From: a virus
Reading direction: 5' to 3' (one strand)
IMG/VR virus record: IMGVR_UViG_3300017751_000066
Span: 1 to 38,101 of that record
Length of the DNA stretch: 38,101 nucleotides
The notes beneath the pieces are model-generated. The model was not told the DNA's origin. It did not search any database and was given only the letters and a program-made list of their open reading frames with translations. A program made the position numbers and the translations under genes. Shown in pieces: positions 2-26,947 of this stretch (position 1 is the first letter of the stretch; each line of letters begins with the position of its first letter).

Positions 2-259
2 TGGTATGATAAGGTGTGGGTCCTTGACTCTCAGTGGGGTGATAGAGCATCCATGATAAAGAGTGAGGCTCTGCTTAAACAAGGAGAGACCGTGTTTATA
101 TGGCCAGAAACACTAGGTAAGAAATATAAAGACTTTAATGATTTAGCTCGAGCTGCTAATAAAGATGAAATTAGTTGGGCTTGGATACAAAAAAATACCT
201 TCGAAGGACTCGAAGGTATTGTTAAGATGACTGAGATTAAAAAGTATACTAATGCTTAA
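2..259 (+). CDS. DNA primase-like protein, C-terminal fragment (5' end outside window)
   Basis: The reading frame is open to the left edge, so only the last 85 residues are present. The segment WVLDSQWGDRAS...KSEALLKQG...VFIWP...KDFNDLA has the layout of the second half of a TOPRIM domain as in phage DNA primases: a hydrophobic strand ending in an acidic residue, an Asp-containing helix, another strand, then a K-D-x-N-D motif. A primase would make RNA primers for lagging-strand synthesis at the phage fork. A GTG at 14 is an internal codon, not the start, because the frame continues upstream. It converges on the next gene with stops overlapping (TAA at 257-259). The family call rests on a short motif match; another TOPRIM protein is possible. 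Confidence 0.6.
   Translation, partial: WYDKVWVLDSQWGDRASMIKSEALLKQGETVFIWPETLGKKYKDFNDLARAANKDEISWAWIQKNTFEGLEGIVKMTEIKKYTNA
189..220 (-). terminator. Intrinsic terminator for the minus-strand gene, embedded in primase coding sequence
   Basis: Arms at 194-204 and 210-220 are perfect 11-bp complements around a 5-nt loop (205-209). Seven A residues at 189-195 become a T-run after the hairpin on the minus strand, so the structure terminates leftward transcription coming from the gene that ends at 256. On the plus strand no T-run follows. It lies wholly inside the primase coding frame. Confidence 0.7.
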
Positions 260-690
260 ACTCCTTTGAGTGCTGGGTTTTCTGACTGTGCAAGATAACC
301 ACGGAAAGTTTCATTAAGAGCAGCAAGATCAGTAGCTACTTTTGATACACGACGTTGCTCACCACTCATCTTATCAAATAGAGTGTCAGCTTCAGCATTA
401 CCAATTGCATAGGCAATAGAGTTAGGATCGTTACTATCATTAAGCTTTTTAAGAAACTCATCACCTGAGTTAATCCAACCTTTAAGTGTATTAACCATTG
501 CAGCATTTGCTTGACCAATTGCTTCTGCAGCTTTAACAGCAGGATCAACTTCAGCAACTTCTGTATCTGCTTCCATGTCTACATCAAAATCTTCTGATGA
601 AGTATCATCGTCAAGCTCTGCATCAAATGCCTCTTCATCCTTAATATCTTCATTAAGGACCTTAAAGAATCTCTTTTCAAATTTACTCAT
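256..690 (-). CDS. Acidic hypothetical phage protein
   Basis: Not recognised. 144 residues starting MSKFEKRFFKVLNE. The N-terminal third (about residues 14-50) is very acidic (runs of D and E), followed by an Ala-rich, probably helical C-terminal half. The upstream-extended frame (to 726) is rejected because a late-promoter box (CTAAATA on the minus strand, 696-702) ends 5 nt before the ATG at 690, the spacing seen at many genes here. No Shine-Dalgarno sequence precedes it. A highly acidic small protein under a late promoter could be a scaffold-type or DNA-mimic protein, but nothing in the sequence proves this. It is followed by an antisense-embedded terminator. Confidence 0.75.
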   Translation of the reverse strand: MSKFEKRFFKVLNEDIKDEEAFDAELDDDTSSEDFDVDMEADTEVAEVDPAVKAAEAIGQANAAMVNTLKGWINSGDEFLKKLNDSNDPNSIAYAIGNAEADTLFDKMSGEQRRVSKVATDLAALNETFRGYLAQSENPALKGV

Positions 691-695
691 GTCAA

Positions 696-717
696 TATTT
701 AGTCTCGAGACTAAATA
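696..717. promoter_or_regulatory. Perfect 22-bp palindrome forming divergent late promoters
   Basis: A perfect inverted repeat centred on the CTCGAG at 704-709. Each arm ends in a T4-type late box: CTAAATA on plus at 711-717 (7 nt before the ATG at 725) and on minus at 702-696 (5 nt before the ATG at 690). The two boxes share one palindromic core, so the divergent genes are probably co-regulated. Confidence 0.75.
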
Positions 718-724
718 ATAATAC

Positions 725-1051
725 ATGAATGTTGCAAGTAATCCGTATTATGTAGGAGCTGCGAAGGATCCTATCAATCAACAAATGGATCTTGGTGGTC
801 AAGAACGTATGTATAAAGATCAAGAACAATTCCAAAAAGCAGATTCTATTTTACCTCATGAATTAGAAGGTATTATAGAGGTTCTTGGAAATACCTTTGT
901 ATCACTTGCAGATCTTCAACGTATGCTCGAGAATGTTAAACAGAATGAAACTGTTGACAGTAAGCATGTAAGTCAACTACAAGACAAAATTGATCAAATT
1001 AATAATCTGATTCTTGAACTACCAGAAGAGCTTAATAAAATATCGCTATAA
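725..1051 (+). CDS. Hypothetical protein with C-terminal coiled coil
   Basis: Not recognised. 108 residues. The N-terminal part is polar and Gln-rich. From about residue 45 to the end the sequence is strongly helical with leucines and isoleucines at heptad-like spacing (LEGIIEVLGN..., LQDKIDQINNLILEL), consistent with a coiled coil and oligomerisation. The late box CTAAATA (711-717) lies 7 nt before the ATG. It is the first of a run of small plus-strand accessory genes. Confidence 0.75.
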   Translation: MNVASNPYYVGAAKDPINQQMDLGGQERMYKDQEQFQKADSILPHELEGIIEVLGNTFVSLADLQRMLENVKQNETVDSKHVSQLQDKIDQINNLILELPEELNKISL

Positions 1052-7738: not shown

Positions 7739-7745
7739 TATTTAA
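7739..7745 (-). promoter_or_regulatory. Late promoter box TTAAATA
   Basis: TTAAATA on the minus strand ends 5 nt (AGTGT) before the ATG at 7733, so the lectin-like and protease genes can be transcribed apart from the fibres upstream. Confidence 0.65.
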
Positions 7746-23979: not shown

Positions 23980-24465
23980 TCAAACCAAAACGTACCCATC
24001 TTTGTTTAGAGTAGCATTTAAAGATAGGTTATGAATGTCTAATCTTGGTATACTAAAGTCAATGTTAATGATGTATTCAGCTTGATCAGGATTTTCTGTT
24101 ATTTCAAGCTTGTTAAGAGTAATACGAGGCTCTTGTATACCAAGATTGTTATAGATATAATAACCTAGAAAGTAGGAAGTTGTTGAATTAATAGGTTCAA
24201 ACAAATAGCTTCTAAAATCAAGACCAAGCGTGGGGTTAAGTAACTTTTGACCAGGTGTTGTTGTAAGAATATTCTTAACAGAATTAAGAACACATTGACC
24301 GTCTTGAATTTCATCCAAATCCTTAGCAGACGCATCACCATACAACTCAGGACTTAAAAAGCGACTAGTGTTTAAGTCGAATTTTATATCTTTATACAGA
24401 TACCCATTTTGAAGTGATTTCTGCTCACTATCTGGTATCTTTAAATTATCTAACCTTACTGCCAT
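23980..24465 (-). CDS. gp25: Baseplate wedge protein gp25 homologue (gp25/TssE family)
   Basis: 161 residues. The family's hallmark E-P-R motif is at residues 112-114 (IQEPRITLNKLEI), preceded by PGQKLLNPTLGLDFRSYLFEP, the conserved core of gp25-like proteins. gp25 contacts the first sheath ring and helps to start sheath assembly. The gene stops with TGA immediately followed by TAA, an unusual tandem stop in this TAA-dominated window. It has a TATAAATA late box, but 14 nt from the ATG, leaving a short leader. It heads the baseplate operon and is divergent from the next plus-strand gene. Confidence 0.9.
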   Translation of the reverse strand: MAVRLDNLKIPDSEQKSLQNGYLYKDIKFDLNTSRFLSPELYGDASAKDLDEIQDGQCVLNSVKNILTTTPGQKLLNPTLGLDFRSYLFEPINSTTSYFLGYYIYNNLGIQEPRITLNKLEITENPDQAEYIINIDFSIPRLDIHNLSLNATLNKDGYVLV

Positions 24466-24473
24466 AAAATGTG

Positions 24474-24487
24474 TATAAATATTTATA
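24474..24487. promoter_or_regulatory. Self-complementary late promoter TATAAATATTTATA
   Basis: A perfect 14-bp palindrome in which two full T4 late boxes overlap head-to-head: plus 24474-24481 and minus 24487-24480. The minus copy would drive gp25 (start 14 nt away). The plus copy lies upstream of a second, better placed box for the plus gene. Confidence 0.7.
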
Positions 24488-24494
24488 TGAGTGA

Positions 24495-24501
24495 CTAAAT
24501 A
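24495..24501 (+). promoter_or_regulatory. Late promoter box CTAAATA
   Basis: CTAAATA ends 5 nt (ATAGT) before the ATG at 24507. Confidence 0.65.
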
Positions 24502-24506
24502 ATAGT

Positions 24507-25031
24507 ATGGCTAAATCGAACAAATTCACAACTCTTTTGGAGTCTTATATGAGACGCAACCAACGTGGTGGTTTTCTTGTAGGAGATGTATTCAAGTTTA
24601 ATGATAACTTTAAAAGTGATGATGCATATAAAGATCTTGCTGATGTGGTAAAGAAGTGTATTGACTCAATGATTGATTCTGGTCTTAATATACGTGTTAT
24701 TAATATTAAAGACACATCACCTGCTAGATATCCTGCATCTGATCAAACATCTTCACTAGATGTTGTACTTGATATTGCACTAGACACAGGTGGAGGCCGT
24801 TATACAGATGAAACTTCAATTCCTTGCTGTCTTGGTAGTTGCGAGCAATATGCTCCAAACTTACCTCCTATTCCTGATGCACAGCGTCGTAAAGATACAG
24901 TTACAATTAAGCCTGAAGAAGTAGAAGAGAATGAAGAGAATCTTTCTAACAAGACTGATCGTGGAGATGGTAAGCTTTCTCAAACTGAACTTACTCTTAA
25001 GAAGGAGAGCTACACCCAGCAGTATCTTTAA
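24507..25031 (+). CDS. Conserved hypothetical protein of marine T4-like phages
   Basis: 174 residues. The opening (FTTLLESYMRRNQRGGFLVGDVFKFNDNF) and the core (SGLNIRVINIKDTSP...SSLDVVLDIALDTGGGRYTD) resemble a protein I recognise as widespread, but unnamed, in marine T4-like phages. A compact alpha/beta domain is likely up to about residue 120; the tail is charged and probably disordered. A late promoter at the canonical spacing suggests a virion or assembly function. Its stop overlaps the start of the small zinc-ribbon gene (TAATG). It is the only plus-strand block within the tail region, divergent from gp25. Confidence 0.75.
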   Translation: MAKSNKFTTLLESYMRRNQRGGFLVGDVFKFNDNFKSDDAYKDLADVVKKCIDSMIDSGLNIRVINIKDTSPARYPASDQTSSLDVVLDIALDTGGGRYTDETSIPCCLGSCEQYAPNLPPIPDAQRRKDTVTIKPEEVEENEENLSNKTDRGDGKLSQTELTLKKESYTQQYL

Positions 25032-26891: not shown

Positions 26892-26899
26892 TATTTATA
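26892..26899 (-). promoter_or_regulatory. Late promoter box TATAAATA
   Basis: Full consensus on the minus strand, 5 nt (TATGT) before the ATG at 26886; the same arrangement as at 11043. Confidence 0.75.
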
Positions 26900-26939
26900 T
26901 TAAGGAGAGTAAAATTCTCTTTATTTTTAGCACCTTTGA

Positions 26940-26947
26940 TATAAATA
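26940..26947 (+). promoter_or_regulatory. Late promoter box TATAAATA
   Basis: Full consensus on the plus strand, 5 nt (CTAGT) before the ATG at 26953. It is divergent from the minus-strand box 41 bp away. Confidence 0.75.

Follow-up and report, generated by a model that had tools for sequence, protein, structure and literature searches.

The palindrome at 696-717 and the genes on either side

Positions 696 to 717 of the window (the whole 38 kb stretch of IMGVR_UViG_3300017751_000066 that was analysed, 38,101 nucleotides) are occupied by a perfect palindrome, TATTTAGTCTCGAGACTAAATA, which separates two head-to-head genes, termed here A and B; the junction is referred to as locus a. Gene A (256-690, minus strand, 144 aa) starts with the ATG at 690, and gene B (725-1051, plus strand, 108 aa) with the ATG at 725. 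The mechanically called open reading frame of A opens at 726, but we placed its start at 690 because the proteins of relatives align from that position. Family searches with both proteins led to no convincing family: A has no match above noise, and B shows weak matches to families of unknown function only. The window itself is a fragment of an uncultured T4-like phage, with genes for a clamp loader, a dUTPase, baseplate wedge and hub proteins, a tail tube protein and the end of a primase. Its clamp loader is at most about 41% identical to those of named phages, the top matches including Methylophilales phage Melnitz, Pelagibacter phage Mosig and Prochlorococcus phage P-SSM4, and neither the locus a region nor proteins A and B gave any match among 50,697 named phage records at the limits used.

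The palindrome comprises two outward-facing TAAATA boxes and a 10-nt core, GTCTCGAGAC (702-711). The box of gene A (696-701, minus strand) lies 5 nt from its ATG, and that of gene B (712-717, plus strand) 7 nt from its own. As the original prediction had stated, the repeat is perfect over 22 bp: its arms of 11 nt each are 100% complementary and no loop separates them. No other perfect palindrome of the window is as long, the runner-up having 9-nt arms. Among 300 first-order Markov sequences as long as the window, 5 contained arms of at least 11 nt, i.e. the chance occurrence of such a palindrome is uncommon, not extraordinary. The exact 22-mer has no match in the genome_contigs collection.

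The window contains two outward-facing pairs of TAAATA boxes spaced exactly 10 nt apart, a number reached by none of 400 Markov sequences (mean 0.04 pairs per sequence). The second pair, TATTTATATGAGTGACTAAATA (24480-24501), has a core, TATGAGTGAC, that is not palindromic. It lies between the gene of a baseplate wedge subunit (23980-24465, minus strand, identified by family match, 14 nt from box to ATG) and a gene termed here X (24507-25031, plus strand, 174 aa, 5 nt from box to ATG); this junction is referred to as locus b. We take the baseplate gene to be gp25, the matching families saying baseplate wedge subunit only. A third divergent late pair occupies 26892-26947, with a gap of 44 nt, and between its boxes a hairpin-like GAGAG...CTCTTTATTTTT was noticed by eye. 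A tRNA-Asn (gtt) gene is located at 2075-2149, with a TAAATA box at 2049 just 5' of it; the next 24 nt contain no ATG.

Boxes and cores in related contigs

The locus a comparison covers 10 contigs with A and B head to head (window included), which came from searches with proteins A and B, together with three from scans of longer contigs. Two further contigs stand outside this set, one without the start of A (L012) and one distant (L013, with a gap of 14 nt), and some loci were left out of the comparisons as duplicates or unrelated. Both TAAATA boxes, one per strand, and the 10-nt gap are kept in all 10 contigs, which agrees with the original reading of the element as two divergent late promoters for the genes starting at 690 and 725. 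Two contigs have the palindromic core, namely the window itself and a near-identical contig (97% identity in A, 98% in B). The cores of the other eight read GTCTCGGGCA, GTCTAGGGCA, TGCCCTCGAC, TGCTCTCGAC or GTCTCTGGTA, with one or two of five self-complementary pairs. Thus 8 of 10 contigs keep the boxes without the palindromic core, which is the pattern that the original prediction had named as refuting it, and selection on the palindrome or its central CTCGAG finds no support here. Among the six distinct cores, columns 3 and 8 are invariant; these correspond to G at -14 of promoter A (position 704, minus strand, read as C on the plus strand) and G at -14 of promoter B (position 709, plus strand). 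The same G is present in 62% of single late promoters of the clade, counted over 30 gene clusters. G at -20 relative to TAAATA reaches 50% over 30 gene clusters, a signal that has been weakly tested. We conclude that conservation at locus a extends to the two putative promoters but not to the palindrome.

At locus b, facing boxes 10 nt apart are found in 39 of 39 loci (out of 43 baseplate gene/X loci, four of which were left out as lacking the start of the baseplate gene). The 12 distinct cores have on average 5.7 of 10 bases in common, and GAC beside the box of X (3 bases) is invariant. The leader of the baseplate gene varies in length from 12 to 14 nt, while the gap stays at 10. One contig carries at this locus the identical 22-mer of locus a, an awkward fact for any reading of the palindrome as incidental. 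When viral contigs were scanned for TATTTAGTC-N4-GACTAAATA, 8 stretches were obtained, one at locus a of the near-identical contig and seven at the baseplate gene/X junction. We attribute the recurrence of the 22-mer to the half-site GACTAAATA common to both sides and to chance in the middle 4 nt.

Spacing between box and start codon

In the contigs of relatives, an ATG that opens a reading frame of at least 50 aa stands exactly 5 nt after TAAATA in 76 distinct contexts (a gene may contribute several), whereas 14 permuted hexamers average 5.8; in the window the corresponding numbers are 8 and 0.6. Some permuted hexamers have high peaks of their own, up to 43 for ATAAAT at 6 nt, of which 42 overlap or adjoin a TAAATA box; nearby boxes do not fully explain the peaks of AATAAT at 3 nt (21 of 30 beside a box) and ATAATA at 2 nt (11 of 23). 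Counted per gene, the distance is exactly 5 nt in 23 of the 33 clusters that have 4-7 nt between box and ATG, gene B with its 7 nt being a departure. A Shine-Dalgarno-like word between 9 nt before the box and the ATG is present in 4 of these 33 clusters, as judged from the first member of each. Late boxes with an ATG at 4-5 nt are common in the window, e.g. those at 1461, 2186, 7744, 11054, 24496, 26897, 26942, 28906 and 37674. On the minus strand, boxes at 7744, 16370, 22088, 23961 and 34839 read GATTAAATA, and GAT precedes the box in 20 of 75 single contexts; the idea that such boxes overlap stop codons was dropped, as the upstream genes end 11-38 nt before them.

In T4 the late box occupies positions -13 to -6 (excerpts of PMC2988020 and PMC1524935). 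If the same register applies, an ATG located 5 nt after TAAATA would place +1 at the A of the ATG, and the late mRNAs of the clade should therefore be leaderless. Among isolates, the peak at 5 nt recurs in Pelagibacter phage HTVC008M (11 cases versus a control mean of 1.2, in 140 of 147 kb), more weakly in Mosig (6 versus 2.0, in 140 of 141 kb), and with few cases in Melnitz (2 versus 0.2, in 100 of 141 kb). It is absent from T4 (3 versus 2.4, in the first 160 of 169 kb), P-SSM4 (1 versus 0.4, in 160 of 178 kb) and the KVP40 stretch (0, in 100 of 245 kb). The HTVC008M annotation starts two coding sequences with this spacing at exactly these ATGs and includes a late sigma factor. Leaderless genes are already known from phages, whose transcripts are stated in general to be often leaderless (excerpt of PMC5312081). 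A limited literature search found no description of leaderless late genes in T4-like phages, and in the excerpted text of the Melnitz paper (PMC9004378) the word leaderless stands solely in the title of a reference.

Probable back-to-back late promoters and their relation to known systems

The explanation that we favour, with considerable confidence, is that 696-717 represents two overlapping and probably mutually exclusive late promoters of the T4 type, one per strand, with boxes 10 nt apart and predicted leaderless transcripts, and that the palindrome is incidental. Boxes with a TAAATA core, similar to TATAAATA, are present upstream of late-type genes, as in T4-type late promoters. The polymerase would consist of the host core and a gp55-like late sigma factor, tethered to the sliding clamp by analogy with T4, and would bind the element in one orientation or the other. 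A search of 26 records detected gp55 in 3, each from a distant relative; the window and 19 close relatives, which are all fragments, yielded none (0 of 20). By the T4 rule, as given in the same excerpts, transcription of A would start at about 690, with the A of the ATG as the first base of the mRNA, and that of B at about 723, with a 2-nt leader; each box would fall at about -27 to -22 of the opposite promoter. A distance of 33 bp between the predicted starts, together with the position of each box inside the opposite promoter, means that the two orientations should exclude each other. The footprint of the activated T4 complex is reported to be 13 bp longer at the upstream end (excerpt of PMC2988020), and with starts at 690 and 723 two complexes should therefore not fit. 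The mutually exclusive loading of polymerase that had been proposed for this element would thus follow from its geometry, whereas selection for exclusion, the other half of that proposal, is no more than a possibility. The palindrome itself can be explained by the half-site GACTAAATA carried by both promoters, which accounts for 18 of the 22 nt, and by the middle 4 nt being self-complementary by chance; judged from the relatives, the 22-bp symmetry is not kept as a palindrome.

A reading that goes further holds that the 10-nt gap itself is under selection, with the facing boxes forming one functional element, a bidirectional late promoter. We regard it as possible but rather unlikely, and the same reserve applies to its variants, in which each box aids the other (e.g. 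as an A/T-rich stretch upstream) or the arrangement enforces exclusive and balanced firing. Several observations speak for it. The gap is 10 nt at two unrelated gene pairs, and it persists through turnover of the core, which shows no insertions or deletions. Among 28 divergent late pairs in the window and the contigs of relatives, in which each box precedes an open reading frame, 21 have a gap of 10 and seven a gap of 41-52. In contig L199, an X that is 51% identical keeps the 10-nt gap with a different partner gene; that gene sits between X and the baseplate gene (L199, 1331-1364). At the gp4/gp48 junction of Vibrio phages (6 of 50 matching records) the gap is 10 in four records and 9 in two, namely nt-1 and K567, the inner gap of nt-1 having been read by eye (29 from the outer box). 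Finally, in the 30 clusters of single late promoters A/T is weakly enriched at -18 to -14, upstream of the box (z at best 2.1), a region into which the partner box partly falls; like the G at -20, this signal has been weakly tested.

Against selection on the gap, the 21 cases derive from two gene pairs and are related by descent, so that few of them are independent, and the 44-nt gap at 26892 is equally unchanged in three close relatives. At 23 further baseplate-gene loci the gap is 10 in five (close relatives); among distant ones it is 38 in four, 9 in two and 23 in one, and 11 have no pair, some of these being cut off or having another neighbour (23 of 80 loci were examined, most of the others being contigs already counted or matches to no more than an internal portion of the protein). 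Of the gap-9 cases, the pair in L201/L203 has its left box 65 nt away from the corresponding ATG, and one beside X in L204 was not counted, the left gene having a nearer box. In L013, with an A that is 35% identical, the gap is 14 and the left box does not adjoin A, the divergent boxes of HTVC008M have a gap of 4, and those of T4 genes 26/51 abut or overlap. A scan of the collection for TATTTAGTC-N{0,30}-GACTAAATA gave 41 stretches, with inner gaps of 4 in eight, 30 in seven and 13 in five (counted by hand); it does not single out the spacing. A universal 10-nt spacing across T4-like phages was rejected: facing boxes with gaps of 0-30 included a gap-10 match in 3 of 10 isolates, and of these three the match is intergenic in KVP40 and inside genes in Mosig and S-SKS1. 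By these comparisons, a gap near one helical turn recurs among phages and is not universal. A speculative proposal is that a bidirectional late promoter of fixed geometry is in use in a clade of uncultured marine T4-like phages: two outward-facing leaderless promoters would be locked 10 bp apart as one element, each binding of polymerase would pick one transcript, and the gap, not the core, would be selected.

Far less probable is a palindromic operator, bound by a dimeric regulator of phage or host that controls A and B, with selection for symmetry; the original prediction had likewise considered a shared regulator. The perfect 11-nt arms do exceed what two boxes require, and the identical 22-mer recurs at a second locus in another phage contig; at locus b, moreover, 1 of 12 cores pairs perfectly and 3 of 12 have 4 of 5 pairs. 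However, the other 8 of 12 cores have none or one of five, and the symmetry is lost in 8 of 10 contigs at locus a. Self-complementarity does not exceed that of randomly re-paired left and right halves at either locus (P=0.97 for 6 cores at locus a, P=0.47 for 12 cores at locus b). All cores with 4-5 pairs read GTC....GAC, i.e. two GAC half-sites, and the invariant bases are the G at -14 at locus a and the GAC beside the box of X at locus b. On these grounds a dimeric shared regulator finds no support here, and a conserved operator was rejected by comparison of orthologous sites (symmetry in 2 of 10 at locus a). A hairpin in DNA or RNA, whether as cruciform, terminator or processing site, is hardly credible, although a perfect inverted repeat can fold into one; we rejected it by position and lost symmetry. 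The element lies upstream of both predicted starts and would therefore be missing from both late mRNAs, it is not followed by a T run, and its symmetry is not conserved.

With the back-to-back late promoters as the preferred explanation, an eye-catching palindrome is turned into testable statements about late promoters. Divergent late genes can have 22 bp of promoter DNA in common, and both this marine T4-like clade and a cultured phage of Pelagibacter have late boxes so near to start codons that the late mRNAs should be leaderless. If so, the structural proteins of such phages would rely on leaderless translation, and the clade would offer a natural set of promoters with fixed spacing and variable core for studies of polymerase competition. 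The element thus probably belongs with the T4-type late promoters, a known kind, and combines a back-to-back geometry fixed within the clade with genes predicted to be leaderless.

The late promoters of T4 (dependent on gp55, gp33 and gp45, with TATAAATA at -13 to -6) are similar in having a short A/T box at the -10 place and in lying upstream of late-type (structural) genes on either strand, and no conservation is reported at the -35 place (excerpts of PMC2988020); in phage Aeh1, CTAAATA from -12 has been reported (excerpt of PMC1524935). The clade differs from T4 in its preference for G at -14 and in the ATG, which often follows the box at 5 nt, whereas in T4 the distance peaks near 28 nt (23-29, in the first 160 kb). 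T4 genes 26/51 (TATTTATAAATA) likewise form a pair of divergent late genes with outward-facing boxes, but there the 8-nt boxes overlap by 4 nt and the hexamers abut (gap 0), unlike the hexamers of locus a, which are 10 nt apart. The gp4/gp48 divergent promoter of the KVP40 type (TATTTAGTATCGAGTCTAAATA) resembles locus a in its outward CTAAATA boxes, its gap of 10 and a core that is not kept, and differs in its genes and in leaders with a Shine-Dalgarno-like GGAG. HTVC008M shares TAAATA-N5-ATG before 11 open reading frames, and in one divergent pair 5 nt separate box and ATG on either side; its divergent boxes are 4 nt apart as against 10 at locus a. Bacterial bidirectional promoters, as described in the excerpts of PMC12825309, have divergent starts too close for two polymerases at once; in contrast to the boxes studied here, their -10 element is common to both directions and their starts are mostly 18 bp apart, also 10 or 23. 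By the definition given there, 696-717 is not a bidirectional promoter, since its boxes are separate and its predicted starts 33 bp apart, but by analogy it may resemble these bacterial promoters in excluding a second polymerase.
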